Position numbers and translations under genes: made by a program
Notes under the pieces: model-generated
Told to the model about the DNA's origin: nothing
Databases searched by the model: none
What the model saw: the letters and a program-made list of their open reading frames with translations, nothing else
Shown here: positions 12,291-59,900 of the stretch, piece by piece
Numbering within the stretch: the first letter of the stretch is position 1
Layout: each line of letters opens with the position of its first letter
Source of the DNA: Asterochloris sp. CNOR1
Lineage: Eukaryota; Chlorophyta; Trebouxiophyceae; Trebouxiales; Trebouxiaceae
Reading direction: 5' to 3'
NCBI GenBank assembly: GCA_963969365.1
Contig: OZ017750.1
Span: 248,001 to 312,000, forward strand
DNA length: 64,000 bases

Positions 12291-12324
12291 CAGTGCATTG
12301 CTTCCCACACCACTAAGTGTGGAG

Positions 12325-14052: not shown

Positions 14053-16309
14053 ATGCCTCGAGTGGTGCAGACTTCTAATGATGTTATGGAGCTCAAGGGC
14101 CTGCGCAGAAAGGTGATAGGCACTCGACCCTGTCTTCGGCCCTAAGGACGACGACTGCGCTCACGCTGAGACCTCTGCAGACAGGTGCCAGAGGAGCTAG
14201 GCCCAGAGGTCACCAAGAAGTTGGGTGGACCCGCCAAAGCTGCAGACGTCAGTCACTGATACAAGTTTTGAGGAGCCACTCATGCCTTTGCAGCTATTCC
14301 GATGCCACATGGCAGCTCTCTGATGCTGTCCCTTCTGACCAGAGCTGCTTGCTGACAGATCTTCTTCGATTGGACACGAGGCTTTGCAGGAGACCCCGAA
14401 ACGAAGGTGCTGCTGGTCGCTCATAAAGCCCACTTTGCGGCGACCCACAAGCGGCAGGTAAGAGTTCTCTGGCGGGTGTGCACAGTTGCCTGGCTGCTGC
14501 CCGACCCCACGCACTTAGCTCAATTGCCTCGCACAACGCACCTTCCTGCAGCTGGAGCCCCTACCATTCTGTTTGCCTCAATCCTGGCTTGCCGGTGCGC
14601 AGACTGCTGTGCCGGCCTGCACGTGCTCATCTTGGTGCTCTTGACAAGCTGAGTGACCTGCAGACTTGGAACTCTCCTGGCGTGTTCAGCATGCCTGGGG
14701 CATGCTGATGCAAAGCTAGTACGCCTCTCTTAGCCATGCACAACGTATCATTCACTTGCCCTGGGTGTCGCTGAAACAGGGTCACTGGCCAGGCAGGCAA
14801 CAGCGATGAGGCGCGTCCTTGGGCCACACAGGATGTACATGTAACACATTAGCGACTGCATGGACCAGGCTGCATGTGAGACTTCTGCAAAACATGAACG
14901 AGGCTATTGGTGCCATGCAGACCTGCCTTCTGGTTGCGTGCAGCAGATTGACTGCAGAAGTCTGTATGTTGAGGTGGCCATGGAGGGTGCTCAGCATGCC
15001 AAGTGGAGATGGTCAAACCGCGCCAGGCAGACACCAGTGTAGAGCGACACCTTATGGGGCATGCTGCAGATTGCTGTCACCCCCTGTCCCTCTCAAGAGA
15101 TCAATGCTGACAAGGTTCGTGCAGGCGCCATTACTGAAACAGGGGTCTACCCATGCAGGTTGCAGTCGTGAGGTACCTCGTTGGCGGGCCCAGCGTACTG
15201 AAGGCGGAGGACTTGATACGGCAGAATGCTAAGATGGCAAGGAAGACTGATGGACTGAGGCTGTCGCTGGACATGCTCCAGAAAGCACACCAGGACCTTG
15301 TCAATGTGCTCAGGGATTCAGGATGCTCAAAGGTACCCAAGATCATGCGTGTCTCTCTCTGGGCACTGGGATCTCGGCAGAGAATCTACTGTTCCACACG
15401 ATGTGTCTGAAGGAAGGCTGTTCACTCAGTGGATGCTTCAGGACCAGGGTTCTCAACACATCAGCTGCTTGCACTGTGGGGCTTCCCAAGGGTGCGTTGG
15501 GTGGTGAGGTTCTTTGGGACTGGGATCTCCACAGAGCAGCTGGTTGCCATGGGAGCACTCTGGGGTTGCTTAGAGGTGCTGGTGGATCCTCTAGTCTCTT
15601 CTGGGAGCAGGAGAATCAAGGGAGCGATCTACTTGTCTGCTCAGGACTAGACTTCATGCCCAACATGATGCCTGCCTTGCACATGGCCCTTTTCATGGGG
15701 CCAACTGTCATGTCTTGGCTTCGAGATGCATGGCAGGGGATCATCCTTGAGCCATTTGAGGGCCAAAGTGCACCCTTGCCTTCATCAACCCCACACTGCC
15801 TGCCCCAAGCAAAAAGCGGCGGGGCCACATGCTTGACTGGTGCTCCATGCAACGCCTGCACTGCTTGCCCTGCAGAGATGCAGATGCAGTTGCTTAGGTC
15901 GGCTTCAAGCTGAGCCTGCAAACGGTCTGACCTGCCAGGGGTTGCTTCAGGGGCAGCCATGTGTTCTCCCTCCCCCACCAAATCTCTGCTGCCTGCTCCA
16001 CAAGAGGTTGCTGAGGAGGCAACTGCTTGGTGGGCACTACATGCTGAGCCCATGCTGCCTGCCTTGCAACAAGGTCGACTAGGCGTCTGACAACTTTGCC
16101 AATGGATGGAACTACTGCTGCCTGCCCTGCAGGATGCTGTTGAGTGGACTGTGCATGCACCTCTGCTCACAGTTGACTGGATGCTGGTATGTCTGCAGGA
16201 AGTTGTTGTGGAGGCAACCCAGCGGGCGCTGGAGCTTGAGGAGGGCTGGAAGCAGGTCCGAGCACACCCCACAAAGAAGCATATCTGTTCCTGCTGCAGC
16301 GTGCAGTGA
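14053..16309 (+). CDS. Multi-exon protein of unknown function
   Basis: ATG at 14053 starts MPRVVQTSNDVMELKGLRRK and ends at a GTGATA donor (14112). The next exon (14185-14250) gives VPEELGPEVTKKLGGPAKAA. A convincing exon at about 15157-15332 encodes a helical, charged stretch (KAEDLIRQNAKMARKTDGLR, then DMLQKAHQDLVNVLRDSG). Candidate exons follow near 15649 (DFMPNMMPALHMALFMGPTV) and 16199-16309, which ends EEGWKQVRAHPTKKHICSCC with a stop at 16309. The exon order between 14250 and 15157 is uncertain. The predicted chain is largely alpha-helical. I do not recognise the family. The gene starts about 30 bp beyond the right terminus of element copy 2. Confidence 0.45.
15990..16225 (+). repeat. 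Decayed copy of the last exon's acceptor and start in its intron
   Basis: The last-exon start at 16199 (ctgcag, then GAAGTTGTTGTGGAGGCAAC) has a related stretch at 15999-16024 (aagag, then GTTGCTGAGGAGGCAACTGC), about 200 bp upstream in the preceding intron. Confidence 0.5.
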
Positions 16310-16319
16310 CCTGGATGCA

Positions 16320-16840
16320 TAGTGGCAGCTCTATGATGTGCCTGCAGCTCAGCAGACCACAGGCCCACATGGCAGGCCAGCAGCGTGCAGCTCATTGTAG
16401 GTTGCTGCTCAGGTGCAGCTCTCAGCATTCTGTCGGAAAGCTTTGGTCTCTTCAGCGCCCAGTCTCAGCTTTGTATGCAGCAAGAACTGCAGCCTCGACA
16501 CAGACACCGCTTCCTTTGAACCTGGCCATCTGCATGACAGGACAGGACCATCCCCAAGACCATATTGCCAGCCATGACTGCTGCAGCATGAGCTGATGCT
16601 GCACATAAGCAGTGCCTGACATGCATGTCTATCTTTGCCATGTCACAGACTCTCAGGGCACTGGTTTCTGATCTGCTGTTCATTGCTTGTCAGTTGCCGT
16701 GGTTGGGTTGCCTATGTGACGTTGCAAATTTGCAACTGACTGCGGGAACATACAATACTAGCCAGTTGGCTTGCTGCACCACACTCTGACCAAATTTTGC
16801 TGTTCAGAAAAGACCATCTGGAGCCAGGAATTGTGTAGCT
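16320..16840. other. No gene recognised
   Basis: Sequence between two small plus-strand genes. There are only short open frames on both strands and no recognisable motif. Confidence 0.5.
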
Positions 16841-16844
16841 TTTC

Positions 16845-16925
16845 AATGTGCAGAGATCAATGTGCAGTGCCTACGGAGCAGGCCTCATATTTCACGCCAT
16901 GTTGCGGCCATGTTGCGAGGCGTCA
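16845..16925 (-). other. Possible degenerate terminus of the HUH-like element
   Basis: The stretch ggagcaggcctcatatttca followed by cgccatgttgcgg and gcgtcacatggc resembles the element termini at 1715-1760 (ggagcaggcctttgggtctg) and 13960-14010. The match is short and partly palindromic, so it could be chance. As with copy 2, it sits upstream of a gene start. Confidence 0.3.
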
Positions 16926-17007
16926 CATGGCTCAATTTCGGTCACAAGAAAGTTTGTGGTCCGCTCTGCGCTCAAGGGCTTGCCCTCGCCCTCGCCCTCG
17001 CGCTCGA

Positions 17008-17370: not shown

Positions 17371-17441
17371 ACATCTGGAAAGCATGCAAACCCCTTCACA
17401 AGTGCATATTCCAGAAGTCTCGCTGCGCGACAGAACCTCTA

Positions 17442-17820: not shown

Positions 17821-17928
17821 CCCATGAATTAGGTCAACAGATGTGGTGCATGCAAATGTAACAGTGGACCAATTCAGTCACAACAACAATTCACTTTCTC
17901 TGGCAACCAGTCAGCAAATCAACCTCAT

Positions 17929-20900
17929 ATGACCACACTGCCCAAGCCCGGGCAGATCATTCAACATGACTTTCGAAACACAGCTCGCTCCGCATCACCA
18001 AGGGGCCAGCCCATCAAATTGCTTCAGGTCTGCTGTTACATGATCCCTACAGCATTGGCAAGCAGCATTGCTCACATCCATGTGCCTTCTGCAGTGGAAC
18101 ATCGAGCGGGGCTACAAGCTGCCAGACATCATTGCACAGATGCAGCAGGTACAGGCGGATGTCATCGCATTGCAGGAGATAGACATTGGCTGCAAACGCT
18201 CTGGGAGTATTGATACAGGTGAGGCAGAGCAGACCTGAAGAGCATCCTGCAATTGTTTCAGGGCAGGCAAGCAATCCTGCAATGCTGTCCATGGCGGGCA
18301 AGACATCCTCAACGCTGTTCGTGACAGGCGGGCATTGCTGGCCTGCAGGCGTGGAGATTGCAAAGGCGCTCCAGCTCAACTATGCTTTCTTCTGCGAGTT
18401 TGAGGAGCTGGAGTCGCCCAAAAGGTCTCCAGAAACGCAGGCAAGCAGAGTATTGGCAATGACTATGTTTGCTGACTGAGTTAGCTGCAACGTGAGGGCT
18501 GGGTTGCTATTGCTTCAGACAGTCCCAAAGCATGAACTTCTGTTGTCTGGGCCACCAGCCAAACCTCCCCGCACAACAGCAGCAGCCAGCCTGGAAGGAT
18601 TGCCATCTGTGCAGGGTGGTGGCGTTCATGGGAATGCGATCCTCAGCAAATTTGATATGCAAGACGTCAGGCTGGTGCGACACAAGTGAGCAGGGATTGA
18701 CTGCAGGGGACTTGAACAAAGAGGCAGACTGCTGAAAGGGGGGGAGCAAGGAGAACTCATTGTACAGGCATGCGCATTGTTGGCTCCAGCACAGTCTTCG
18801 ACACAGAAGGCTGGGTTGCAGAGAAGCCTCGGGTGGTTCCTGAGAGGGCCACCTCACATCATCTTGCATCCTCGCCTGTTGAGGTCGTTCAAGGCCTTGG
18901 CATGGGCTTTAACAACCTCCCAGGTGGAGCTGCTGGCTGTGTCTGGCTGCCCTGGCAGGGACCCTGGTGCTGCAGCACCACCTAGCAGACCTGGCACCCC
19001 AGGCCCTGGCCCCAACCCTGCAAAGCATGGGGCCAGTCACACTCCACGGCTGGCCTGTTGCAATCAACTGCTGAGGAACAGGGAACATGCGAAGCAATGG
19101 CTGCATACAAGGAAGACTTGCATGTGCAGCCATGCCTGCCATCAGCATGCGATGCCTGACCCTGGTGACTGCCAACCTCAGCCAGTCCGATGATGCATCA
19201 TGGGCGGCAATCAGACAGTGTTGTTCAGCAGCATGCTGCACCACTCGCCTCTGGTGCAGTGGTGTGGGGTGTGCCCCACATGGTGGCCCCATCTGCCTCC
19301 TGTGAAGTAACAATCATGAAGCGCACCTGGCGCCTCGTCGTCACCCACCAGCTCCATGACAGAGCCAGTCTCGCTGGGCCGCTGTGCAGCAGCTGTCTCT
19401 GCTGCCTGGGCAGCGGCAGAGGCCTCCTGCACGGCCTCGTCCGCCCGCAGCTTGTCGTTCTCTGCCTGGATGGCTGGGCCGGGACTGCTGGGGTAGACTG
19501 TGGTGCCATCCCAGTCTGGCGTCTCTGAGCTGCCTATCAGCCAGAAGCAGCTGCCTGCGATGTTGTGCCCAGCCCGCGCATGGGCCAGTATCCGCTCATA
19601 TACCTGACATGGACACATGAAGGGTGAGGTGGGACCAGGACAATGCTGCTCCTCGGACCAGACTCACTGAATATGCTGGACTGACCACAGCATACAGGCG
19701 TTCCATGGCATCACAGCATGCGGATGGACATAAAATCCCAAAACTCTCTGGGCTTGCAGCCATGCAAGCAGCTAAGCAGAGGTGTTGCCCTGTTTTAGCC
19801 ACGTTATTGCTATTGTGACATCAGGCACAAAGAGCTTTGGTACAATGCTGGAAGTAGCTGACCCTGTCATAGAAGGCAACCCTGACAGCCCCATCTGGCG
19901 TCTTCCCAAACTCTGCGACCACCAGGGGCTTCCTGAGCTGCCTGCTGCACAGGTCCACGTGGCAGTTTATCCAGCGCCGGGTGAACTGCCACTTGCGGTC
20001 CTCGTCAGCTTGCTTGAGCCAGTGGTCCGGCCTGCATCGTAGCCGCAAGGAGTGAGCACACCCTCCAGTGGTCCGGACTGCGCCGTGGCCGCAAGGACCG
20101 AGCACACCCTCCAGTGGTCCGGCCTGCGCCGTGGCCGCAAGGACCGAGCACACCCTCCAGTGGTCCGGCCTGCGCCGTGGCCGCAAGGACCGAGCACACC
20201 CTCCAGTGGTCCGGCCTGCATCGTGGCCGCAAGTACTGAGCGCACCCTGCAGTGGACGTCCCACCTGCACTGGAGCCGCAAGGAGTGAGCACACCCTTGC
20301 CTGCACCACGTGTGAGCTGGCTTCCTGTCGAGCTCCTGCTACAGCAAGCACCTCAAGCCTTTGAGATGCTGCACATCAGCGATGCCTCATGTGCCAGGCA
20401 TTGCTGCTGCTGCAGACAGCCCTGAGCGGGTGCTAGGCTGCCTGCAGAGCGCCGGGTGTGAGCTGGCTTCCTGCTGAAGTTTTGCAGGCACGCTGCGCTT
20501 GGCCATGTCACTCCGTAGGGATGCTGCACTTCTGCACTGCATCATGTGCTAGGTGCACTGCCTGGGTGCCAGAGGCAGCAGCGAGCTGGCCAGCCCAGCT
20601 GGGGCAGCACCTTCCTGTAGACAGTCACTGCAAGACAGTCTTGCAGGGTGGTTGTGACCACCAACTGCAAGCAGGTGAAGGGCATAGCCCACCCAAGGTC
20701 GAGCTGGAGTTGACAGTGGCCCAACTCTGGTTGGGACTTGTAGCCAGCCCAGTTTCTGGGTAAACGCAGGCTGCAACACAGGTTGGCAGAACTGACTTGT
20801 ATGGGGGAATGACCACTGCAGCGTGCTCTCAAGCCAGGCCGAGAGGTGCTGGGAGGCTCACCAGCAGTGGATTGTGGTGAAGTCGATGTGGGGGCTGGAG

Positions 20901-23900
20901 TGGTTGCGCAGAAAGTCGCAGCCATTCTCCATTGCGTTGTAGGGGTTGTCATTTAGCAGATCTGCAGGGCAATGCCCCTCTATGCCTCAGCATCAGCCTT
21001 GGCAAATGGCTTCCATTCCTCAGCATCAGGGCAAAGGCAAATGGCATCCAGTCCTCAACACCAGCTCAGGCAAATGGGCAGGTGGACTGGCAAGTGGGAG
21101 TGGCCAAATGTCACAAGACACATGCCACGTCAGTTGCTTGCTGGAACTCTCTGGTCTCCCCTTTCTGCCAGTCCTGTCCCCTGCCACTGGCCTGTGGCCA
21201 GAGCTGTCCCAGGTAGCTCCCTCACCAGGCAACAGACACTGCTGGGGGAAAGGGGAGGAGCGAGCGACCTCATCCAAAATGATGAACAACTTCAGCAAAC
21301 CTCTGCCCATTTGTCTACTGCCATTGGCCTGCGGCCAGAGCTGCCGGGGCAGGCCAGGCTTTCAGCAGGCAGCAGACACTGCACCTGGGGGGTTTAGGGT
21401 GCAGGACTGGCACATGGCTGCTCACACCACCACCCTACAGCTGACCTGGAGTGGAGCTGCCCAAAAAACCCTCAGCGCCCACGGTGACGAGGTGGTTGGG
21501 GTCGATGCTCTTGAGGAACTCTGCGGTGGCATCTATCCAGCCCTGCAGGCTGCTGCCTGAGTAGTCGCCGTCACAGCGCGGCTCGTTGGACAGCGACCAC
21601 GCAAGAATCGTGGGGTCGTCCCTGCAACAGACCACTGCTGGTGCTTGGCTGCATGCCTGCTCACTCGCACATGCCTGCAGCTTGCAGTTCGCGCATGCAT
21701 GTTCAAGTTGCACCATGACGCGCATGCATGAAGACATGCCAGGATGGTGGGCTCGTCCCTGCCCATGCTGACGCATCATGGTGCAACCTGAACAACAAGA
21801 CACGCCAGAAGGGTGGGCTTGTCACTGCAAGGACCTGCTGCTGGTGCACTTGCAGGCACCTTGAGCAGCAGGGCTTGTTTGCGCAGGTGCTCACATGGCA
21901 TGCGGTGACGAAGTCTACGCTGAGCACGCAGGATGGCTACTTGCAGGGACATTTGCAGTGTACAGCAGTGGTGTCCTCAGCTAGAGACCATCAGCCTACC
22001 TGTATGGGACCCCTGTGTAGGTGTTCACTCTGCTTGTGATGGTTGCCTGTGATGCAAAAGGCCTGTATCAGCACCTGATAGCAGTCGCTGGCAGCACAGG
22101 CTCTGTGCATGTGCAATCCCAATCATGCAAAGGGGGCAGCTGTGGCATGGCATCGACACAGTGTGCATGCAGTGCCTGCCCATGCCAAGCACTGGGCCAC
22201 GTCTGGAACCTGCGCACGAGAAAGTTCTGGAAGACGTCCTGACACTGCGGATCTGCATAGAAAGCCTGTGCTTTGGGCTCTGTTGGTGGCTCCACATGGC
22301 GCCGTTGGCAGCTCCACCTGTCACACAAGCAGTAAGAAAGCTTGAATCCCTCGCCACATGTTGCATTTCAGTGACCAATACACCCCAGTAGCAAATGTGC
22401 ATTGTGGGGTGCATGCCTGCAGCACTTGAGTGCCAGGACACAAGCCGCCACACTGGATAGCGATGACTTTGCATCACAATGCCCTGCCTGACACCCACAG
22501 AGCAAGTGGGATGCAGGGGTCTGGAGCAGCGTGACCCCTCACCTGACATACTGCGGCATACCCCCAAAATGGTGCCAGTAGTTGCTCAAGGCCAGTATGA
22601 GGCGCAGGTTGCGCTTGCCTGCCTCAGCGATCACATAGTCCAGCCCCTTGAACACCTTCTCTGAGAAAACACCTGCATGAGGCATGAGGCACATGATGCA
22701 ACATGTTGCAGCACCACCTCGATCTGAAGCTTTGCGGACAGAAACCATTTGCACAACGCAGGTAGCGCTGGAAGGAGCCCTGCACCTGTATCAGGGCTGC
22801 CTGCATGCTGCTGCTGGCTATCAAAAGCCACCTGCACCCAGGCAGCCATCATGTGCAGGTCTATCCTGTGCAGGTCTGGGTGCTGCAAGACACCGCATGC
22901 AAGATGTAGCTGGCTCTAGGACGAGCCCTGCACATGTGTCAGGGCTGCCCGTATGCTGCTGCTGGCTCTTGAGACCCACCTGCACCCAGAGAGCCATGTG
23001 CATCATGTGCAGGTCTGGGTGCTGCAAGACACCGCATGCAACATTGTAGCTGGCTTTGAAACCAGCCCTGCACATGTGTCAGGGCTGCCCGCATGCTACT
23101 GCTGGCTCCTGAGACCCACCTACACCCAGAGAGCCATGTGTGACATGTGCAGCTTTGCCCCAGCCTGAGGTCTTGCGTGCATGGAGGCCACAGGCAGGTC
23201 AACAGCTGGCCAACAGTTCAGCGGAGGCTATCTGCAACTGCAGCTGGCTTTGGAAAACACGCCTGCAGCAGGGAGCCATCTGCACATACTTATTCCTGCA
23301 TCTGGGAATTTCTGACTTGCTCATAGACAGTGGTTATGAGCCTGGCCGCTGGAAGGCCAATGCATGCTGCAGCTGGTTGGGGCCAGCTTGTCAGCTCTGT
23401 GCTGCAGCTGCCTTGGCAGAGCCATGCCCGGCACGGTAATCAGCACCTGCTGAGCCTGAAGCTGCTGGAGGGGCCGGCGATCACCATTTGCTCACTTACA
23501 ACCAGACTGCGCAAGCCTTGCTGCTCAGCTCGCTGCTCAGCTCGTGGCAGCTGCAGTGCCAAGGCCAGGGGGTATGCTGAGCATGGGGCGCCAACCCCGA
23601 CTGCACTGGCCTTACTGCCCAGCACTGCGCCGAGTGCAATGCTCAGCTTAGGGTGCGCACCTGCCTCTGGCTGCAATGCATTCCATTCTGAGCCTTCTCC
23701 AAAGGCCCAGGTCCGCAGCACTGTCAGGCCAGCCCCCTTAACAGCATCCAACACCTCGCACACCATGGGCTGCATGTTTGCCTCAGCCGCTCTGGTCTGC
23801 ATGCATGTGCAGGAGCACTTGGCTCTGGAAGGCAAAATGGAGCTAAGAGTGAGCAGCAGAAAATAAACATCGCATGACAGTGTCAGCAGCCAGCATTTGT

Positions 23901-25966: not shown

Positions 25967-28900
25967 TTACACTAGAGAAGTTTGTGACCTCTGGTTTCTG
26001 AGCGGGAATGTGGGAGCCTGGCGCCTGGCCCCCCAGCTCCTCTCATACAAGATGCGGGGCAGAAAGTCCTTGTACGGATCGCGCTCCCGCTCATCCAGCA
26101 GCCACCCAATGGCCTCTTCACAAGACGCCTGCAGTGTCCAGCAAGTGGTCCAAGAACTTTGAGATGGCCTTCACAGGACGCCTGCGCGCCTGCCCACGGT
26201 AGTGTCTGGCATGATTTGCCATCTGTGCAAGAGGAGGGCCAGGTAAGACTTGAAAGTTTCACTCTTTTGCCACAAAGGACCTGAATGCTCAGGTCTGCTG
26301 CCTGCTATGTCTCAACAGGACCCACTGGTCACAGGCTCTATCCCTGGTGCAGCCCAAAGCATGCACCAAATGGGCTGCTATCAGCTGCAGATGTTGTAGA
26401 CCAGCCCAGATTACACAACACAGGCCACTGTCTGCCTCAGGCAACAGTGCATAGCTGACCTTGGTCTGGCGGTTTGGTGCAATTAGCTTCAAAATTGTCG
26501 ACCAGCCCAGATTGCACACCACAGGCCACTGTCTGCCTCAGGCAACAGTGCATAGCTGACATTAGTCTGGCGGTTTGGTGCTATTAGCTTCAGAATTGTT
26601 GACCAGCCCAGATTGCACACCACAGGCCACTGCCTGCCTCAGGCAACAGTGCATGGCTGACCTTAGTCTGGCGGTACAGGCTGTCGCACTTGCCCCTGTC
26701 CTCCAGATCCTCTGGCCGCGTTCTGATGGGGGCCTGGAATCTGAAGTAGAAGCGGGCAGGCAGCTTGGGCACTGCAAGGGGCTGGACAAAGGTCTCGTCC
26801 ATGTCCGTCATGTTGGCCACCCCCCTGCAGGACAGCAGTTTGTGTCACACATGCAGACCGCCAGCACCTGGCTCTGGCATGCTGGCCCTGGCAAAGCAAG
26901 ACATCTCAGGGGTATCAGCTGCAACTCACTGGCGAGCCGCAGGGATCTGGGTCTTTGCCCTCTGCTCCAGCTGCGCCCCCACAATGGGCAGCGCCCGTAA
27001 TTGCTTCGGGTCGAGCAGAACCTCCACAGCATCCTCAGAGCCAATCCCGCCAAAGGGCACAATGGTGGCCCCGAAACGGGCAGCCATGCGCACAAACTCA
27101 GAGCGCTGGGAGGGCCAGAAAAGCTGGTACTTCTCCCCCTTGTTCTTGTAGGCCTGCAAGGAAGTTTGTGCCTTTTACAGTGGGTTGTCACCAAAAGCAA
27201 AGCTTGATTCGAGCATCTATGAGCTTTGTCATTGTCTCTGGCAACCATCCATGAACGGCGCGTCACACATGCTTGTGGCACAACAGCTTGAGAGTGCTGG
27301 ACCATTCACAGATTATGGGAACCTCTTGCCTTCTGTCAGCCGGCCTGCAGGGGAGCGGTCACTGCCAGCAAGCCTGTTGCAGGATACAGTTGCAGCATGC
27401 ATTCACCTGTTCTCCTGCGAGCGCTGGAAGATGCATGATGAGGGTAACAGCTCAACATGATAACCAAATGTAGTCAGGCGCAATTTCCACCCCTCCCCCG
27501 GCCCCTTTCCACCTGTGTGCTGCAGGGATCGGCATTGCCATCTGTTGACATCTCAAGGAACAGATCAGCAATGATGGCCTAGCAGCAGGCTGCAACCTCC
27601 ATAAGATTGGACAGCTTCAGAAAAGTTCCTACTACATCACCCGTACAGATGACACCGCTGGAGGGCTGCCCCCAGTGATACCGAGAGCTGCCTTGCCTAG
27701 CAGCTGAGGCCATCACGAAAGAAACCCGCGGTGGTCTCACAGTGTGGGGCGCCTACCTCTCTCACGCCGCCAGGGTACAGCAGCACAGCCTCCCCATTCT
27801 TGAGCAGCTTGAAGAAGTTTTTGCCCGTGACAGGCACAGCCCCAAAGGTGCTCATGAAGCCCTTGAAACCAGATGTCTGGGCGTCACCCTCCTTGTTGTC
27901 TTGCCCCAGCCCTATGAAGCCCTGCAGGCAAATGGTGGCTGTCTCAGCGTGGCTTGCAATGTCTGAAGACATGTCACTGAGCATGCAATGTGGTGCCTGC
28001 AGCATCAGCAGGAGTGGCTGTGAGCCTGCCGTGCTAGCCTGGTGAACACTCGCTATTAATTGTTCTGTACATGGCCCGCTGACCCCCTGCAGGCCTTATG
28101 ATGCCATCAAGTTTTATATGACACCAAGCAAGCACATGACTGGCTACTGGTTGGGGCACTCAGAAAGCTGCTTGCCTCAGCGCTGCCATGATTTCCATTT
28201 TCAGATATCTGTGCTGAAGCACATGAGTCGCAAACCTCAGATGCTACAGCCTGCTTGGCAGCTGACTTGAAGGCGCAAAGAGCTCTGTGCTTACCTGGAA
28301 GACAGCTGGGTGAGCAAGGCCACGTGGGAGGATGTCCGCCTGGGTGACCAGACCGTCCAGCATGAGCCCGGTATCAAGCGCTAAGGTCTGGTGATTTCCC
28401 ACAAAAATGATCGGCCTGCATGGGGGCAGGCATGAGCGATCAGTGCCAGCACTGACTACCTGGCCCAGCAAGTTGGGTGGGACACAGGTGTCAAAGGGTC
28501 TGGGGTTCATCAACCATCTGGGCAAGGCTGACATTGAGGTGGTGGCCCCGGCAGACACAGCTGGCAGGGGGTGTACTGCCAGCAGCGGCGCACAAGAGCT
28601 ACAAGCGTGCCATGGCCGCTGCTGGTAGCTGCACCATGCGAGGTTTGGTGGTGGTGGAGGTGGGGCATAAAAATGTAACATGGCTCTGAGGGGCAGCACT
28701 TTCCCAAAAGGGCCCGACAATCATGCAGCCGGTGGACGCACAGCATGCTTTGGCCAGCCAGCACCTCCACACGTGGCCTCAATACCATGCAGCCTGTGGC
28801 AGCGCAGCATGGCAGGAGCCGAACATTGCCTTTGCCGCTGGAAGCACCCAAGGCATGTAGCCCGCAAGAAGCGCAGCAAGCTCAGCATCCATCACATGAG

Positions 28901-47262: not shown

Positions 47263-47403
47263 GTGGGTCAAGCAGCAGGAAAATGGAACAGGCAAACATC
47301 TAAACTAGCAGTCACTGCCGTCCATCTCGGGGTTACATGGGAGTGCGGCTGGTTGTGCTGGCAAAGTGGAGACACTGACTCTAGAAACTGGCCCTTAGCG
47401 TTA

Positions 47404-50400
47404 ATGGACCCGGCTGGCCCCTCAGACCTCATGCTGGATCAATTCGTGCTCGATATGTGGAGCCAGAGCCCCAATGGCCATAGTGGCATGCCCTTCAACC
47501 TTCCAGCTGAAAATGCAGCCCAGCACAGACAGGAGACCACAGCACCTATGGCGCAGTGGGGTAACCAGCAGCCCTCCCTCCCTGTGAGTACACCCCAATT
47601 TAGCATGCCTGAGCGGCAGCTGAGGGGAATAATGCAAATGCATGCACTCTTCAAGCTCTCCTGGGCCCTTGCTGAACTTTGGGGAGGCCCTCGCTGAGCT
47701 TTGGGCTCATGACTACGCAGGTGCAGGTGCCAATGAGTGGCATGGCCCCCAACAGGGCCGCAGCACACTCGCCGGCGGGCAGCCTGCCTACCACCAGCAG
47801 CAGCGGCCTGCTGAACGACTTGGAGGCCGGAGGACGCAGCAACAGTTTTGGGCAGTTGTATCAGCAGGACGAGAGCCCTGACGACATGACAACGCACCGC
47901 GAGAAGAACCGCTTGGCGCAGAGGAAGTTCAGAGCCCGCCAGAAGGTGGGCCTCTGCTGTGGGCACTGCACACAAGGCTGTGTGTCTTGCCTGTGTCCTG
48001 CATGGCCCCTTCTGCTGCCCTCAGCTTCGCTGCACTGATCGTATGGCCTGAGCCTTATCCGTTTTATACGCAGCTGCTTGTCCCCCAACTGTGCTGCACA
48101 GATCTGCATCATGGCTTGACTTCGAATACCACACAGAGCCTTGTGGCCAGGATGGCAGACCACACCTCAGGCGATTCTGGTCTCTGCAGGAGAAGATGAA
48201 GACCAGCCAGAAACAGCTGGATGAGCTGACTAAGAGGGTCAGCATGCTCATGGCAGAGAAGTCGCAGCTGGAGACGCGCAACAGGTGGGCAGATCAGGTG
48301 TTGGGAGTTATCCTGCAGGTTCTACAACAGGGCTTCCATCAGCGTAGCACTGACACTCAGCCACCTGCAGGTGGCAGAGCATGTGTGCTGCCTGCTGCTG
48401 AGCACGCAACTGCACTCCGTGAGTCACAGCCGCTGTGCTCCATGGTACACGACACCTTTGATGTCAGCAGCTGGAAACAGCGCCTGGCTGCATGCAGAAT
48501 CTTGGAGGAGGTGGTCACGCTCAACATGACGCATGAGCAGATGCTGCACTGCAATACGGTGAGCCTGCAAGCTCGCCAAATCGGGCTGCCCCATGCATGC
48601 GACATGACTCAGCAAGCTGGGGCGGGGCGATCCTGAGATGATTCATTTTCCCCGTCACGTGAGCCCCTTGTGAACTTCGTTAAGCAAGGGATGCCCCTGC
48701 TGGGCTGAGCAATGTTGAACACTTCCTGCGCCATCACTGATCAGGATCACGGGGCTGGCTGGTGCCGCAGCTCACTTCTCATGAGCTGCATCCTGTGTCA
48801 AGGCAGACGTCAAGGCTGCACTCATGTGCAGTCTGCTGTTCAGGGTGGGCAGGCCGCATGGAATTGCTGCAGCAGAGACAGTCAGCGGTTCCCTTTTTGC
48901 CGCAAAGGGTGCACACCCATGGCTGTGACATCAGCGCGTCTTTAGGTCTTGGCAGTAGGGGCCAGACAATGATGCAGGCCTTGACACAACGCAATGAGCA
49001 CAGTCTTGCCTGCCCGAAATGTGTCTGGGTGCACTGGCCTCCCCTGCTCAGCGGCTGCTTTATGGGTCTGCACCTTGCTGCCTGCTGACGCTGCCGCGAG
49101 CGGCAGTTTGAAGGTTTCCCTGATGGGTCTGCTGGGCCTTGTCATGGCTACACTCCCCCCCCCGTCTGGGAGGGTACCATTGCCTGCTTTAAGGCACTCC
49201 TGTTTGTGTGCAAGCTGGTGGGTGCTGCTGAAGTCTGTTTTTGTGGGGGGACACACGCTTTGTTGCCTGGCACGCTGTTTTCTTCCTCTGAATGAAGGAT
49301 GCATGACACAGGGAGTGTCGTGGGCCCCCAATACCAGCCCTGAAAAAATGGCAAGATTCTTGTGTGGCTGCAGGAGATAATGGCGCGTGAGCAGGAGATC
49401 TTGTGCGAGGAGTTGGCGCAATTTGTCAATGTGCTGGAGGGGCGCACCGACTTGGGCGTGGCAGATGCCAAGCGGTGGACGCTGAAGGAGTGGATGGCCA
49501 CCATCTTCCCGGTGAGGCAGCCAGCAACTGGCTGCAGCACGGAGAGGCTGAGCCACCTCCCACATGAGCAGGCTGCTTGCTGGCGCCTACTGGCACAGCC
49601 AGAATTAAGGCAGTGCTGGGACCATGGGTTCAGATACGGCTATTACACATGACAGCAGTGAAGAGCCTGTCTGGTGCCGCAGTTGGCCTGTTTCTGGGGC
49701 ACACCCCGTCTCCAGCAGGGCAGCAGCACTGCTGCCGCATGCTGAAGGACACTCTGCACACCCACGTCCATGCAGAGCCAGCCCTGGCTTCATGGCATGG
49801 CCCGCCTCACCGACCCCTGACCTGTGCTGTTCTGACCTGACGCAGAAATACATCGAGAAAGTGAAAGTGCTCGTGAAGCAGGGGATGCAGGACCCGTCCG
49901 GCCCCGCCCTGGCAGAGCTGGAGAGCGTGATGAGCATCAGGGTGAGCAGAGCTGCACTCCCAGGAGCACGCCGCGGGAGGCCCAAATGTATGGGTGTGCT
50001 GCCAGGCAGACTGGACTGTGCTTAGGATGCGGCGCAGCACTGCAAAGCGTGCATGAAGTCCTCTTGAGTGTGCCTCTATGCATGGCGTGCTGTGCTCATG
50101 GTGAGGCGCAGCTTTGGCACTGCACCTGGCAGGCCTGTGAGGCCCCCCTGCCAAGCATGCTGCTTGGGTACCTTGTGTGCAGGCCCGGCTGCGCATCTGC
50201 ACCTCCGAAGTCTTGGTGAACAGAGCAGCGTGCTGTCTGGGACGATCACTGACATGCTGGGCCCATGCTGCAGCGAGCACATGAGAAACGGCGCGCGCTG
50301 TTCAGCTGCTTCTATTGGGCGGTCTACAGCTGGAACTTGGAAGCCATGCAGTCGGCGGGGTCGCCGCCAGGGCAGGCGACCTGGAAAGCCATGCTGGTGA

Positions 50401-53386
50401 GTGCTGCACGCTGCCGCGGTGGCGGCCCCTGGCCTGAAGCGTATGCAATCCAGCGCAATGCTGTTGACCTGAGAATGCGATCAACATAATTCCAGCAGCA
50501 GGGACTGCCCCCGACCAGGCTGCACCTGATCTGAAGCAGCGGCAGGCGCCTGGCGCAAAAGAGAGGTGGAAGTCATGTGACAGGCGCACCCTGCGGGGCA
50601 GGCCTGGATGCAGCGTTCCTGTATGGGCAGGGTGCTGTAACCACGCTGGCCAGAGCCATGGTGCAGCACTGCAGGGCAGCGGGGCATCTGAAGCACAGCC
50701 AGTGCTGGAAAGGGCGCGGAGCCCGAGTGTTGGCCCACACATGCATGCTGGACACACGTCGAGGGTTCACCATCTATGGTGCAAGCTGGAGCTGCCTGGA
50801 CACATCTCTGGCCTGTCATGGCCAAGGAGGCCCTCACAAGTGTTGTGTGGACCCTGCCCGCGTGGCTGCAAGAGCGTAGACTGTGCAGCACTTCAGGGGC
50901 ACGCCCAGTGCACAGGGTATGCAACAGTGGCCTGCCCTGGGTTCAGGACTCCTCCTGCATGAGGCCTGCAGTGCCCAGGCCATGCAAGCACAGGGTGGCT
51001 GCTCAGTCAGCCACCTGCCAGCGTTTTTGCTGGTGATTTCGTATTGGTGGTACCACCAACCTGGGCTGCAACTCGTGACTCTGAGGAAGCACATCGTGGT
51101 ACAGATTCACCTCTCACATTGGGTTCCCGTCGGGTTCAGTTGAAGTGGCTACGTGCTCCACCCGCCGCATCCCTGTGCTGTGCAGGACAACCTGCGCCTC
51201 ACAAGTTCCCAGGAGACGGCCATCCTTTCGGCGCGGTCCACCATGCTGGACAAGCTGAGAGCCATCGGGCGGCAGCGACGGCAGCTGCTATCGGGCCTGG
51301 CCATGGAGCTGCTGCAGACGCCGCAGGTGAGGCTCCACCTCAGACAGGGTCGGGGTTCGCATTCACTCGTGTCGAGCCCGCTGCAGACGGCGCAGGTGAG
51401 GCATTGAGTCAGTGGCGGCAGCTTCTGTCAGGCACAGCCACAGAGCTGCTGCAGACGTTGCAGGATAGATACCAGACGATTGCACATGTGGCAACCCTCA
51501 GCTCAAGCAGACAAGCAGTCTCTGCAGATAGGTAGGTGATTTCAGTTTTTGCTGTTTTAAAGCTGCAGAGCAGCAAGATGCAGGCCTGGCTGGGCAGAAG
51601 GTCAGGTCTGTCCAGGTGGCACTACTCTCCTGGTGCCTACTGCCGTCCAGCAGCATGTGGACAAGGCTGGTCTGTAGCAAACCACAAGTTGCTGATCCCC
51701 AGAGACAGGCTTGGCTGCCCTCACTGTCTACGGCGATCAAGTGTAACAAGTGCTGCTGGCGCCTGCCACCTGCCAATGGCATGTGGACCTGGTTCATATT
51801 TGCGTCACTTTGGCAGCATAGATGCTGCCCATTTGCAGCCGTTGTGTCTTTCAAGGTGCATGCCGAGGCCAAGCTGGTGCAGCAATCGTCTGCCTGTGAC
51901 ATACCAGCGGCATGTGGACATGGCTGGGTCCGCAATCTGGTGCTGAGGGTTGTGTTGCTACTTGTGCGCTGGCTACTGCTGGCTGTCTCTCTCGGGCAGG
52001 TGCAGTGACAGGCCACGCTGATGCACTGGCTGGCTCCCTGCAGGAGGAGTGGCCGCAGTGCCCCTCAGTGCAGCAGCTGCAGAAGAACCTTGGGCAGGAG
52101 CGCGCTGCCGTGTTTACATTTATGTACAGTACTTGTGACGAGGTGCGCGGAGCCAGCTGCCTATTGCTGCTTGTTGCACCTGCTCTGCGGTTTTTGTGAG
52201 GCCGAGTCCGGCAGAATCCCAGCGTGTGGCAGCTGTTTACTTGTTTCTGTGCATTAGCTGTGCAGATGTGCTGCCAGCTGCGTGTTGTCGTTTGCTGCAC
52301 ATGCTCTGTGGAGTCGGTTGCCATGCTGTGCCTGGCAGCAACAAGGAAAAAAGAAGAAGACAGCACTTGCATGCCTGCAGCGTGCTCATGCCGACCAGCC
52401 TCCACAATGCTTGCTGCACATCAAAGTCAGGAGCTTGAACTGCACCTGTGTCTCTGCTGCCTGCAGACGTTGACCAGTGTTCAGGAGGCAATCTTGGACA
52501 CAGAAAGCTATCCCTGGGCCCCGGACATCTGGCAGATCAGCTGCCTGCTGGCGTCAGCCCGTGGGCAGCAGGACAAGGGGCAGGTGCCTGATCTGAAGCT
52601 AGCCGGGCCCGCGCTGGCCTCCCTGCTGCCCCACAGCACAGCCTTCACGCTGCTGACGGAGCCGCTGATGGCCCAGGGGCTGGCACTGAAGCTCAAGCGT
52701 GAGTGTGCTGTTGAGATCCTGATGTCCATCACAATATGGGTTTGGTATGGTTGCAGGCATGGTGCATGAGTGTGCACCAGCAGGTGCATGCTGCAGGTTC
52801 AGCGGTGAAGCTCCAGCATGAGTGCTGCCTGTGGTAGCTTTCTGCTCTCCAGCATGGGCTCACGCCGCTGTTGGGACCTGCTGTTGGCTTTCACTCCACT
52901 TTGGAGCTGCTTGGTTTGTGGGGGTGTCAAGTAGGACTGGGCGGCTGCGCTGACAGGTTGCAGATGTGGTGCAAGCTTTGTGCCCTCAGCAGGGACATGC
53001 TGCAAGCCTCACACTGCGGCTCAGGTGGAAGGGCCTGCTGTGTCTCTTTTGGCTTGATCTGCAACTGGTCAGGCAGGCTGCCCTGCTGTGGGAGGCCAGG
53101 CGCCAGAAAGGGGAACCGAGTCTGGAAGCTTTCACCCATGAGGTGCGGTGTCACCATCTGACAGCACGCCGACGCTCTGCCGGTCCCCTGCGCTGTGCAG
53201 TGGTCAGGTGCTGCTGCTGTTCTCTGAAGCCTGCTCGGCTGGCTTGCTGCAGGCGGGATCCTGAAGAACCCCTTCCAGTTGGTGGTCCCTGCCGCGGCCT
53301 TCTCAACCCCCAGCATAAAAGCACTGGAGAATATGTCCCTCTTTGATGTGCACTGCGGGGGCTACAGAGACATCCAGTTCTGGTGA
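47404..53386 (+). CDS. bZIP transcription factor (YAP/Pap1-like basic region) with long C-terminal region
   Basis: ATG at 47404 begins MDPAGPSDLMLDQFVLDMWS. Exons 47404-47583, 47721-47945 and 48190-48284 join in phase. They encode the basic region REKNRLAQRKFRARQK (Asn-x7-Arg, with the NRxAQRxFR form seen in YAP/Pap1 proteins), then a coiled coil with spaced hydrophobic residues (MKTSQKQLDELTKRVSMLMA). Later exons are about 49374-49512 (RWTLKEWMATIFP), 49846-49941, 50182-50216, 50274-50396 (ALFSCFYWAVYSWNLEAMQS), 51184-51326, 52043-52141, 52469-52697 and 53252-53386 (ENMSLFDVHCGGYRDIQFW, stop). The exons between 48284 and 49374 are uncertain. It should act as a nuclear DNA-binding dimer. The alpha-helical C-terminus of several hundred residues may be regulatory; I do not recognise its domain. 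The targets are unknown. Confidence 0.85.
51270..51470 (+). repeat. Repeats of a bZIP-gene exon end and donor
   Basis: The exon end GAGCTGCTGCAGACGCCGCAG with donor GTGAGGC (51326/51327) recurs at about 51380-51402 (CCGCTGCAGACGGCGCAG, then GTGAGGC) and at 51440-51463 (GAGCTGCTGCAGACGTTGCAG, then GATAGA). The upstream GGCGGCAGCTTCTGTC matches GACGGCAGCTGCTATC of the exon. Confidence 0.85.
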
Positions 53387-53934
53387 GATCCCTCTGCAGT
53401 TGCATCGTTTTGCGTGAGGCACCAGCCTGGTTGCTGGCAGGAGCAGCTCGATTGCAGCTTTTGTGCCCTGTCCAAGCCACCACTGGCAGCTTGCTTGCGC
53501 TGCCAATGCAGGGACTGGATGCAGCAGAACCTGCACAACCTGGTGCCGACGCTGCCTCACTGAGAGGCTCCGTGTGCTGGCACCACCCCATCTTTTCACT
53601 TCTTGGCCCCATTTCTGGCTTGCAGCAAACTACAGACTTGGTTCACTTGCTGGTGGGTTTAGTTCCTAGTTCGAAGACCCTACATGTTGTGTCTTGTCTA
53701 CTGATCGCTAGGCGATGTAACAGCAAGTCTCGCCTTTTCATGTTTGAATATGAATTATACTGCAGCTCGGCACAAGAAGTCAGTCTAGTGACACATTGGC
53801 CAGTCAGTCAAAGCCATAAAGCCCATGCAGATTTAGATGCCGACTGGAAATCTGCCCAGGGCTGGCATACATCGCAACCCGATCTGAGTGCGCCCTCGAC
53901 GGTACTGAGAAGGACATTTTCGGGCTTCGTCAGC
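53387..53934 (+). other. Intergenic region, promoter of the RCC1 gene expected
   Basis: The 548 bp between the bZIP stop and the RCC1-gene ATG contain no supported gene. The part at 53690-53780 is noticeably AT-richer than its surroundings. I could not assign a core promoter element with confidence. Confidence 0.4.
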
Positions 53935-56900
53935 ATGGCTAAGGCCAAGGCTGACACCCAGGCAGCAGCAGGAGCCAAGACTGCTGGCAAGCGCAGGACC
54001 ACCAAGGCTCCCGCAACCAATGCCAAAGCAGCATCGAAGGCAGCTCCTAAGCGGACTGGTGCTAGCACGCCCAAGGCTGCCAGCGTCAAGGCCACTGCTG
54101 CAGGTGTGTGCATCAGAGCTGTGTGCATGTGTTGCCTAGGGTGCCTGGCGTCGCATGCTGTATCTGATGTGCAGCCCACTTGCACGACACGGCAACCCTG
54201 CCTGTCTGCTAGGCAGCTGCGTGACCTCTATCGCTGTGTTTCTGTGGTGCAGGCATGAAGGCGCCAGGTTCCAAGAAGGGCAAGGCATCTCTGCAGGTCA
54301 GCATGCATGCTGCATGGCAACCGCCAGGGCCCTTGCCGGCATCGCTATTGCGCAAACAGTGCCTTGTCAGTCCCTGCAGCGCAGCCTGCTGGCTTGTGCG
54401 GAAGGTGTCCGGCCACCTGCAGGCCTGGTGCCCAGCCTGCCCGCCCTCCCAGCAGCCACCAACGCCTGCCTGGCTAGGCTGTGCACTTACGCTGATTTCC
54501 TGAAAGCTCTTGTTGCTTAGCACAGCAAGCCAGCTGCCTGCAGGAGGAGGCGCCTGCCAAGGGGACCCCTGCCGTGGCTAAGAAGACGGCTGCTGCAAAG
54601 AAGCCTGCTGCCAACAAGCCGCCTGCCAGGAAGTCCTCTGCTGTGGCCAAGAAGACGCCGGCTGCCAAGAAGACGCCTGCCAAGAAGCCTGCTGCCAAGA
54701 AGGCGCCAAGGACTAACGCCAAGGCTCCGGCAAGCAAGGTGTGCTGATGCAGGACTCTGATAGGTTGGCCCAGTATGCGGCACGCATGTCGCATTTCTGG
54801 CTTCCAAGTGGGCTCACTTGTGCGCATGGATCCTCTTTGTGGCTTCCCTGCAAAGCTGCACAGCGCTCACTCTGCACCGCAGCGAGATGCGCCTTCTGCG
54901 CTGTCGTGCTGGTTGCATGCTCTGAGCTGGCAGGGCAAGCCGCAGGGCCGGGCATGGGCAATTGTGCCTCAGCACAGCAAGCACTTGCTGAATCCCTTGT
55001 GCAGCAAGCTTCATCAGCATCTCTGCTCCTGCAGAGGAGGGCTGCAACGATGGCCGCGGTTGCTCAAAAGGCTACAGGCGCTGCTGCCTCTGTGCCCATT
55101 CATGTGTACTTGCCTGCAGTGAAGAGCTGCCGCTGTAATAAGGGCCACAAGCGCTGCTGCAAAACCTGACAATCCTTCTCATGCCTGCCTGCAGATGCCA
55201 GGAGGGGGCTGCAAACGCCAGGGAGACTTGCATGTGTGCAGCAAGTGTGGCAATGCGTCACACGTGTGCCTGCCCACCTGCAGAAGACTGGCGTCACTAA
55301 ATCTGCAGCTGCCCTGAAGACCACCACTGCTGAGCAGAAGGGATCTGCCAAGGCCACCTCTGCCAAGAAGCCTACTGCTGCCAAGCAGACACCAGCAGCC
55401 AAGAAGGCAGCCACCCCAAAGAAGATGTCCGCTGCCGAGAAGGCCCCTGCCAGACAGAAGACGACAGCGGCGCAGAAGCAGGCAGCGAAGGACAAGGCTG
55501 CAGGCAAGAAGCCTGCAGCAGCAGAGGAAGAGGCCCCAGCTGGGAAGGCAGAGGGTGCTGGGGCCAAGGCCCCCGCCAAGAAGGCAGCTGCCACCCGCAA
55601 ACGGGGACGGGAGGTCACTACTGAGGCTGAGCCACGCCAGCTGCCTGGTGTGGAGCACCACACCCATCAGAAGGTCAGCGCCTGTAGTTTGGGTGCTGTC
55701 ACTGTGGCACGCCTGGTGTCTGGTGGTAGGTGGCCGGTAGCACTCAGGGGCCCCTGCTAGTAAAATCAAGCACAGCACAGAGCCCCAAGATGTTAGCCGC
55801 ATGGTGAGTGGGGTCCTCCAACGCAGACAGCAAGCAAGGGGAGTTTGAGACTGGCCCAACTAGGATGTGGTGCTGGTCGAGTCCGCAGCCAGCTTTCTGA
55901 AAACAGCACACGCCAAGCTGCTTGGGAGGTTTCAGCACAGCCCACACTGTGTTGATCTGCTGTCAGCTTGCTTTGCGGCCCAGCAAGATTGTCAAAAATG
56001 CAAAGTCAACAGGTCATTCCCTTGTGCCAACCTGCAGGTGCCTGGGCACATGTTTGTGATAGGGGATGCCGACTGTGGCCAGTTTGGGCTTGGGGAGGAC
56101 GAGATGTCGGCGCCTCGCCCCCGGCCGACAGACATTGCGGGGAAGCAGGTTGACACTGCCAAGCTCTGCTCAGTGGTGCTTGGTTGGGAGCCCCGCCTTG
56201 CCCCGCCTTGTTCGTGGTTGAGCAACAAGAGCGGCCCAGTGTGCGCCTGGCAGCGCCTTGCTCAGTCATGCATTGATGGTGTGCATTGTCGGCGTGCACT
56301 TGGCAATTAAGCTAGGTTTGGCCCAAGGCTTTGACAGTGCACCACCTGGCGCACAGGCTTGGCCAGCAGGTAAGTCTTGTGCTGGCAGCCCCTGCCTCAG
56401 CAGTCCTCTGTCAAGAGCCCTGACTGGCACTGCCTGTTGCACTGGCTGTCTACATCGAATCCACAGGCTGGCTTGTGTCGTTGATGAACAGGAAGACCCT
56501 TCCTGCTGTCCACGCATCTGTCTCTCTCTGGCAGTCTGCACCAAGTGTGGCTGCACTGTTGCAGGTGCTGCAAGTGGTGACCGGGGGCATGCACACCATG
56601 GCCCTCACAGACGACTTCCAGGTTTGGACGACAGGCGTTAATGATGAGGGGGCCCTGGGGCGCCCAACAGGTGAACCCCATGGCTGCTGTGTCTCAGATC
56701 CCACACCCAGCTGCTGCATGGTGATTCGCAAGCACCACCCCTTCGATGCCCGTGCAGTGCCTGTGCATCAGCCTGCTGTGGCCCTGCCCAGCCATTGACC
56801 TAGCTGCAAGGTCAGAACATTTGAGCTGGTAATAGTATGGCCCATCGCCGACTCTGGGCCAGCACCGTACCGACCTGGACCCCGGCAGCGTGCGGCATCT

Positions 56901-59900
56901 CACCAAGCAGCTCTCGACTGAAGAGTGCTTATGTGAGTGAACACCTGTGCTGCCTGCCCTGTAGATGGTGATGTCTGGAAGGAAGTGGAGGTGCCTAAGG
57001 CGAGCAGCTACACCTGGGGCCGTGTAGAAGTTCCCACGGAGCACGGGAAGGTGGTGCAGCTGGCTGCAGGTGAGCTCTTGCTTTGACTCCTGTCTTCACC
57101 TCTTTTGTTTATGCAGCAACAAGAGGCCTGACCAACATCAGGCGTGCCCTTTAGAGTCTCTGGCTGAGAACGGCGACTGCCACACCCTCTGCTGTGCCCT
57201 GCCGGCTCACGACTGAGCTAGGGGCTACTAGACATTGGCCTCATGCAGGCTGCCACAGGCTTGCTGCTAGCTACACGCATTGCTCACCTGGCCTAGGCAT
57301 CCCCCTGCAACAGACAGCCACATGCTGGCTGTGACTCAGCAAGGGGCTCATCACTAGCCTGCTTCAGCCTGTCCCTTGACAGAGCCCGTCACTCATCGGC
57401 TTTGTGCTTCACTTGCAGGAGACGCCCACTGGCTGGTTTTGACTGAGTAGTGGCAGCATTAACTTGTTTCTGTTCGTCACCTGCAGGGGACAGCCACTCG
57501 CTGGCCCTGACTGAGCAGGGGGCCGTGTATGGGTGGGGCACCTACCGCAACACCCAGGGCGTCTACGGCTTCTCCCCCACGCAGCGCATCGCAGCCTCTC
57601 CCACCCTGGTCTACGTCTCTCCTGGGGTCACCCCTGCTGCTGCTCAGCATGACCAGATCGTGCAGATTGCGGCTGGTGAGTCACTGATTGTTGTGAGGTG
57701 CTATTGCCTTGCAGGCAGCATGGATGGGCTGCAGCCTGAGTCAGAAGGTTGCCCTTATCCTGTAGCTCAGACCGCTCAGCATGGCACATGCCAGCCTGTG
57801 TGCTGGACGTACAGCAAGGTGTTGAGGAATCCTGCACTTGCATATCACAGGCTCTGCGAGACTGGACCTCAATGCAGCAACAAGCACATGCCTGGCCTCA
57901 GCCTGCAAGATCTTCTTGGCCGAGCTCCTGAGACCCCCGCAGTCATACACACCACAGCCTCACACAATCTCTCTCTGCCCCCTGCAGGCCTGCTCCTGCT
58001 CTGAACCTTGCAGTCTGGTAGCCTCACGGCATTGCAGCACTGCTACCACCCCACAGACCTTACGCCTGACCGATTGATACATCCCCTGTCTGCCTGCCAG
58101 GCTGCTGCTACCTGCTCCTCTGTACCCCCTGCTGATCACTGGCCCCTGCTGCATAAGTCTCCACTGCCTCATGCAGGGCAGGCAAGATAAAGAAAGAATT
58201 AAACTTCACGATCTGGCCCTGCCAGCAGGCTGTACATCTCCTGGCCACAAGGTCCTCTGCCACTCTGCTCCTACCAACTGCTCAGGCTGTAGTCCTCCTA
58301 TCGGCAAGCCTTTGTTCCATCAATGAATTCCTGCTTCTTTGCTCTCAACAACGGCTCTCTGCTGCAGGTGACGACCACGACCTGGCGCTCACCCGCGCCG
58401 GCACCATCCTAAGCTGGGGCGCCGCAGGACAGGGCCAGCTGGGGCGCACCACTGCCCGCACCCTGGACGCGGCTCGCAGCGAGGACAAGCTCAAGCATCA
58501 GCTGCTGACGCCTGCGCCGGTGAAGCTGGTGCGCAGGGGCCGCGTGGCCAGCCACAGCAAGGTGAGGGGTCTCTGCCTTCGGTGATCTGAGCTGCACGCG
58601 GGCGCACCTCAAGTAGGGGTGCAAGGCAGCAGGGCTGCAGGGGACCCGCTCCCTTCTGCTCGAATTCAAGGCAAAGGGCATTTTGTACACCCCAGATCAT
58701 GGCCCACCTGCCTTTTGGCTTGTGTACTGGGTCTCTTCCCCAACCGTCCTGCCTTCATGCGCTGAGCATCAGCCATGCTGCTCTGCAGATGGTGGAGGTG
58801 GCCACTGGCAGCTACGGCAGCTTTGCGCTGACTGAGGAGGGGCATGTGTGGGCATGGGGCCTGAACCAGTATGGCCAGCTTGGCATTCCTGGCGAGGTAA
58901 GCAATTTCGCCCATCAGTGGGGTTTATTTTGCTGTATGCCCAAGCCGTCAGGTGTGGGCAGGCTGAGGGTCTTATTCAGCCTCTGCATGTCTTGAGTGCA
59001 AGCGGGACAAGGGCCAAGAGGAGCTTGCACCACATCTCACCAAACCAGCACCTGCGGGCTGTGCGATAGGCCAGTAGGAGAGTACCCACGCCCTGTGCTC
59101 GTCCACGTTCCTGCAAGCAGCATGCCTTTCGAGCCCTGTGCCAGAGAGTCTCCACCTGCACATTACCCCTGCTGCAGGAGCCGTTGTACTCCCCCATGCT
59201 GGTGAACAGCCTGCATGGCCACACCATCAGATCGCTGAAGGGGGGGCAGCATCACACTCTAGCGCTGACTCAGGTGGGCCGAAGGAGGCATTTCCATATT
59301 GTCGGGGCCCAGTCCACATCTGCCGCTTCAATGTGCTTGTCGATGATGACAGCATCTGAAACCGTTTGTAGATTTGCACCGCCAGCCCTTTCCGTGCAGG
59401 ACGCCAGGCTCCAGACCCTGATCCTGAAACCCTGCTGCTCTGTAAGCACCGCATCCCCAGCCAAAACATCCTCACCCCTCCTGCCAAGATCATGCAGAGC
59501 CCATCTGCTCTGCCATGCAGGACGGCAAGCTCCTGTCCTTCGGCCGCCCCACCTACGGACGTCTGGGGCGCAAGACTGACCTGGACTGCTACAAGGACAC
59601 AGCCAACCCCACCCCTGCAGCAGTGGAGGGGCTGGAGGGGCACCAAGTGGAGGGCTTCGATGCAGGTGAGCCCATGCGGTTGCTGTCAGAGTTGCACTGG
59701 GGTTGCTGTAAGGTTGCATTGACACAGTGATGTGGGCACCAGGTGGAGGGCAGGGAAGCAGGAGAGCGCCTGGGATTGCTGTGAGAGTTGCACATAAGGG
59801 CTCAGTGGGCATGGGCCTCTCGTGGAAGCCTGGAAGCAGGTACGAGAGACAGGTTGTGATGCCCCATGCCCTGTGCTGCTGGCTAGGTCAATGGGTTTGC

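Follow-up and report, generated by a model that had tools for sequence, protein, structure and literature searches.

The introns of the green alga Asterochloris sp. CNOR1 contain copies of their own splice junctions, and ordinary, minisatellite-like local tandem duplications arising throughout introns most probably account for them. The window examined here is a stretch of 64,000 nucleotides (positions 248001-312000 of contig 5, GenBank OZ017750.1, in a 56.4-Mb genome of 21 contigs), for which a reading of the letters alone (hereafter the sequence-only reading) had described tandem repeats anchored on exon-intron junctions in at least six genes. The pattern is real and rather frequent, and it very likely needs no special link to splice sites. 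In five of the genes, those for a mannanase, an acyltransferase, an LRR protein, a bZIP protein and RCC1, a copy search confirmed junction copies inside the gene's own introns: the real acceptor or donor, together with 13-39 exon bases, recurs there in direct orientation, often with the AG or GT of the decoy intact.

Splice junctions were predicted by a simple ab initio gene finder trained on the same genome rather than taken from RNA sequencing (RNA-seq). The training sample comprised the window and 290 kb of neighbouring and distant stretches, amounting to 354 kb, or 0.6% of the genome. With length and transition penalties, the finder produced stable models (41 genes and 516 introns in 314 kb); after the sample was extended by 40 kb to 354 kb and the finder retrained, 49 genes were obtained, with 569 introns once cleaned. 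During cleaning, 25 internal exons that were shorter than 30 nt, or lay at least 70% inside arrays found by Tandem Repeats Finder (TRF), were dropped; TRF returned 23 rows for the window. The learned consensus was CAG/GTGAGC at donors and CTGCAG/G at acceptors. The coding exon 54544-54738 was restored for the offset and placement, unit-length and exon-part analyses, not for the swapped-intron or gapped offset tests. The uncleaned 314-kb models were used for TRF coverage, the pseudo-site comparison, the first copy lists and the count of in-frame stops in inserts, and two entries from a false exon (20108-20215) were left out of the unit-by-unit array anatomy. As judged by homology to solved structures and Pfam families, the window models recovered the mannanase, the hydrolase/acyltransferase and RCC1.

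Junction copies were compared with chance in introns of at least 120 bp, using a gapped search and a score of at least 18.5. Copies in the own intron were found for 39/484 acceptors and 26/484 donors, compared with 1/484 and 1/484 when the intron was swapped. At the same score, inverted copies occurred at 0/484 acceptors and 1/484 donors, indicating that direct copies are far commoner. In the window alone, 10/79 acceptors and 7/79 donors had copies and swapped introns gave 0 and 0. In the separate unit-length analysis, window introns with junction copies measured 242-1237 nt and their units 46-214 bp. By subtraction, 17/158 junction sides in the window compare with 48/810 in the rest of the sample; that the window is somewhat richer would be expected, since it was chosen for the feature. 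Among introns of at least 200 bp, 37/405 acceptors (9%) and 24/405 donors (6%) carried a relic self-copy in their own intron. The sixth gene of the sequence-only reading, which we took to be the model at 13826-18479 for its "14053 gene", fared less well than the other five: its acceptor 15158 has a copy approximately 363 bp upstream (14770..15184, + strand) with a gapped score of 18.5, a value also reached by 1/484 swapped acceptor controls.

The clearest anatomy was provided by the predicted GH5 endo-mannanase gene (18854..23802, - strand), which holds the false exon 20108-20215 and seems, by eye, to be short of exons near 22290 and 22040. It contains a 46-bp x 6 array (20019..20297, - strand) whose last unit is the real acceptor 20032/20031 with 13 exon bases. 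The protein across 20032/20031 (...DFTTIHCW-PDHWLKQ...) aligned gap-free to solved mannanases at that point, indicating that the remaining units of the array are intronic. Units 3-5 were 98-100% alike, the junction unit agreed with the rest at 86-91%, and unit 1 had diverged most. This array is therefore homogenised in its middle and not a series graded from the splice site, contrary to the claim that copies become progressively more decayed with distance from the junction. Minisatellites typically have such a homogenised core, which is unlike copies shed successively from a splice site. In the same gene, the gapped and ungapped copy searches also found a weaker copy of acceptor 21621 approximately 203 bp upstream (21598..21840, - strand). 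Mannanase-like matches were present on other contigs of the genome.

The sequence-only reading had proposed a non-random placement of repeats in introns and a start of duplication at splice sites. According to such an explanation, a mechanism coupled to splicing or transcription, such as breakage or template switching near splice sites, would begin duplications there and lengthen introns. We consider this improbable. The self-copies at 37/405 acceptors and 24/405 donors are what it would lead one to expect; against it stand the lack of gradation in the mannanase array and three tests (TRF coverage, offset and gapped offset) that showed no clear peak at the junction. In 305 introns no shorter than 240 bp, TRF coverage was 1.3% at both acceptors and donors, versus a mean of 3.6% in intron interiors (238 introns of at least 300 bp). 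Real sites also showed no clear excess over pseudo-sites. In an ungapped through-anchor test with a score of at least 16, copies were found at 35/473 real acceptors, 16/300 pseudo-acceptors and 24/361 interior points, and at 20/473 real donors, 13/280 pseudo-donors and 16/361 interior points.

The offset test, applied to the 405 introns of at least 200 bp, gave a similar picture. On the acceptor side, the copy rate was 5.4-7.9% at offsets of -100 to -10 and 8.1% at 0, followed within the exon by 7.5% at +15, 5.5% at +20, 2.5% at +30, 0.8% at +50 and 0 at +100. At donors, the rate was 3.7-6.4% inside the intron and 5.2% at the junction, then 5.4% at +15, 4.7% at +20, 3.3% at +30, 1.1% at +50 and 0 at +100 into the exon. 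The rate was thus flat from the intron interior through the junction and dropped 20-60 bases into the exon, with a swapped-intron background of no more than 3/405 at every offset. The ratio of junction to interior copies was 1.20 for acceptors (confidence interval (CI) 0.83-1.67) and 0.95 for donors (CI 0.59-1.43). In the gapped offset test (214 introns of at least 360 bp), acceptors had 26 copies at the junction versus 18-25 inside, the highest value by one, and donors had 16 at the junction, below the interior values of 18-22. The 354 kb with predicted junctions therefore did not show copies or array edges to be commoner at splice junctions than in the intron interior. The sequence-only reading had named such a comparison of array edges with splice sites as its own refuting test, and the result was no clear enrichment. 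What survives of its account of intron lengthening is that junction-bearing units were copied into introns, that introns grew in this way and that many decoys are intact; the start at splice sites is not supported.

Several results weigh against ordinary duplication as a full explanation. The splice sites are ab initio predictions and the sample is a small part of the genome. Free placement of repeat groups in gene bodies speaks for ordinary duplication, since 37/91 groups straddled a junction and 46.6 (37-56) were expected, which puts the count at the lower edge of the interval and shows no excess; under a stricter null that allowed no placement with more than 60 exonic bases, 23.5 (16-31) were expected and 31/81 were seen, a modest and borderline excess at junctions that would favour anchoring. 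The acceptor junction was the top offset in both the ungapped test, where its count tied with +5, and the gapped test, within error in each. This slight excess of acceptors and straddling groups may be attributed to exon constraint, which could slow divergence on one side of the match. Unit lengths also differed somewhat. Junction-crossing groups had units of 46-216 bp (median 94.5) and intron-only groups units of 31-345 bp, a difference detected by the Kolmogorov-Smirnov (KS) test (p 0.018) and not by the Mann-Whitney test (p 0.115). Units of 81-101 bp made up 16/32 crossing versus 6/52 intron-only groups, a hand count in a bin chosen post hoc, which again would suit a process starting at the junction.

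The copied exon part and the reading frame provide two further points on the same side. In all 47 cases the exon part was 4-51 bases long, despite the median of 94.5 for crossing units, a limit so sharp that simple tolerance does not predict it, and one that an anchored process could also produce; uncleaned models, used with no rule that the unit fit the intron, added two longer parts, of 57 and 108 bases, the latter at a false exon. Possibly a decoy with full exonic context would compete too well. A test of the exon part as uniform over unit length (KS p 1.4e-9) was set aside as overstated, as old copies give shortened matches. Among units of at least 30 bp, a multiple of three was found in 17/32 crossing versus 13/52 intron-only groups (Fisher p 0.011). 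The duplications may be the same ones, filtered by leaky splicing at the decoys, in which case lengths divisible by three would be more likely to persist, particularly at donors, and some decoys would be working alternative sites. We regard this as possible, if doubtful. In its favour, 12/17 donor units were multiples of three, and the decoy AG was kept at 58/62 positions and the GT at 27/32, about as in the flanking intron arms (88.7% and 85.7%); the alignment is itself biased towards such matches, which makes the evidence weak, as it is for decoys showing no visible purging. On the other hand, acceptors showed no frame bias (9/30), and a looser copy list gave 22/55 for both sides together (hand count).

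Stop codons did not support a frame filter either. For units of at most 130 bp, open inserts between the real and the decoy site were found at 4/6 in-frame acceptors (3.7 expected), 5/11 in-frame donors (6.1 expected), 7/12 out-of-frame acceptors (6.6 expected) and 0/5 out-of-frame donors (1.6 expected), so that inserts of this size freer of stops than expected were not found. Several cuts were examined for the frame and exon-part leads; the frame bias depends on the cut chosen, has no stop-codon backing and is treated here as a lead. It is unlikely that duplications of approximately 80-100 bp, with an exon part rarely above approximately 50 bases and donor lengths mostly a multiple of three, arise somewhat more often at splice junctions of this genome or survive there especially well. 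If this were so, decoys would be spliced at a rate visible to selection, and the rows of decoys would provide a lasting reserve of in-frame alternative splice sites.

The gene models themselves could be at fault, with wrong exons or introns and with repeats that are really coding or wholly intronic. The finder did make false exons in or beside arrays (20108-20215 and 51387-51395) and seems to miss mannanase exons. However, solved homologues aligned gap-free over 20031 and 57486, the two junctions checked by homology, and 28/49 inserts carried at least one in-frame stop, which makes an artefact very improbable. Dispersed elements of the introner kind would likewise place splice-site-bearing units in several introns, as is seen here. 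Introner elements are dispersed families of intronic sequence with splice sites, and the present units resemble them in that intronic sequence bears splice sites; unlike introners, three arrays (26394-26675, 20019-20297 and 40845-41321) each had a single genome match, at their own locus, these counts being lower bounds. Similarity to swapped introns was near zero at junctions. Neither the genome search with the three arrays nor the swapped-intron controls revealed a large set of near-identical copies spread over the introns of separate genes, and an introner-like origin is hardly credible.

The remaining genes showed comparable arrangements. In the predicted alpha/beta hydrolase and DAGAT-type acyltransferase gene (25967..33776, - strand; Pfam), the first unit of a 101-bp x 2.8 array (26394..26675, - strand) is the real donor 26662/26661 with 14 exon bases. 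Its three units were 90-94% alike and too few to judge gradation. Acceptor 29149 of this gene has a copy 96 bp upstream that includes 39 exon bases and an intact ctacag (29111..29266, - strand). The predicted LRR protein gene (35591..45525, + strand), named by eye and from the sequence-only reading, contains a complex 43/102/145-bp array (40845-41321) followed by the real acceptor 41373/41374, which forms a decayed final unit and includes 16 exon bases (40845..41389, + strand). Donor 44657 of the same gene has weaker copies approximately 90 and 187 bp downstream (44628..44860, + strand), and further weaker junction copies were found at 38756 and 36971.

The predicted bZIP gene (47733..53563, + strand) was also named by eye and from the sequence-only reading; its protein gave a weak bZIP match among solved structures (E 0.51) and no Pfam family. 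Its donor 51326 is followed by decoys at approximately +69, with an intact GTGAGG, and approximately +138, where the GT is lost (51311..51466, + strand). A predicted 9-nt exon at 51387-51395 is presumably spurious and created by the decoy, and weaker junction copies lie at 52142 and 52698. The RCC1 gene (53935..63023, + strand), identified by homology to solved RCC1, was predicted jointly with an upstream H1-like stretch, a fusion that may be a gene-finder error. Within that stretch, 54551-54707 (+ strand) is an in-frame coding repeat rich in Lys-Lys-Thr-Pro-Ala which, by eye, is like a histone H1 tail. Acceptor 57486 has copies 68 and 176 bp upstream (57294..57521, + strand), and the RCC1 protein aligned gap-free to solved RCC1 across this junction. 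Donor 59665 has a copy 96 bp downstream in which the GT is now GA (59638..59793, + strand). A unit of exactly 96 bp recurred at the unrelated junctions 29149, 41373 and 59665, each in another gene, and at others outside the window, which may be chance.

Comparable events have been described. PMC4974935 reports that, in the potato RdRp gene, a tandem duplication over an intron-exon boundary made a new intron by means of a cryptic donor. As in that case, the unit runs from the 3' portion of an intron across its 3' splice site into the 5' portion of the following exon. Unlike the new intron of potato, an existing intron was lengthened here and the copy became a decoy, and many junctions were involved, some with multi-copy arrays. 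PMC3443670 reviews a more general model that links tandem genomic duplication to splice sites. In that model, local tandem duplication adds splice sites and the mRNA can remain unchanged, as would be the case here; the model turns an exonic segment into a new intron, whereas the cases in the window extend pre-existing introns. Algal intron length is treated in PMC8226300. A described class of junction-anchored repeats was not found in the literature searched by title and the start of the abstract, with subscription journals mostly outside the search. The suggestion of a new repeat class is unsupported; ordinary tandem duplications most probably suffice, and the potato event is of the same type.

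Minisatellites in introns are single-locus arrays with a homogenised core, whose units lie head to tail and measure from tens to a few hundred bp. The copies described here resemble them in their head-to-tail units, their single locus and, in the mannanase array, their homogenised core, and differ from an ordinary intronic minisatellite only in that one unit overlaps the exon edge.

A few other features of the sample were recorded. TRF coverage was 14.7% outside gene models versus 3.6% in introns (314-kb sample), and long TRF arrays with a period of approximately 140 at 17441-17778 and 22775-23152 overlapped no predicted junction. Outside the window, at approximately 168530-168592 of contig 5 (L014 ~530-592), a 63-nt intron was predicted inside a repeat of unit 63; it is a candidate for an intron gained through tandem duplication, unless it is a miscalled coding repeat that stays in frame. 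Two related predicted proteins, encoded at 509-6616 and 10722-12802 (both - strand), have a common stretch, LYVNNNDHANHRPKDP, and the genes are possibly mobile-element remnants. The protein of 509-6616 (- strand) has a partial kinase-like stretch below the Pfam cut-off and an HIHFL motif, which we take, by eye, to resemble rolling-circle Rep proteins. Between the two genes lies a predicted 12-exon gene (7310-10007, + strand) whose first 403 residues had no Pfam match; its product, as we presume by eye, could be a candidate tyrosine recombinase.

The placement, direction, copy number and decay of the duplicates can be read from the introns, and the copies are direct, head-to-tail, limited to one matching locus for each of the three arrays searched in the genome, and about equally frequent away from splice sites, as in local tandem duplication. 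From this we infer how they may have arisen and been tolerated. Local tandem duplications would arise across introns at large, and a unit that happened to cover a junction would be tolerated if the spliceosome kept the outer site, which is the downstream one for acceptors and the upstream one for donors. At two junctions, 20031 and 57486, the match of the predicted proteins to their solved homologues supports use of the outer site. Such a duplicate would be near-neutral, the previous mRNA remaining available through the outer site. The inner copy would become an intronic decoy and decay, and unequal exchange or slippage would build arrays and homogenise their middles.

If ordinary local duplication is indeed responsible, the pattern requires no splice-site-directed mechanism, and local duplication across splice sites would be a common route of intron growth in this genome. 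The junction copies put a frequency on what the papers cited here give as single cases, and the intact decoys are material for testing how the spliceosome picks between near-identical sites.

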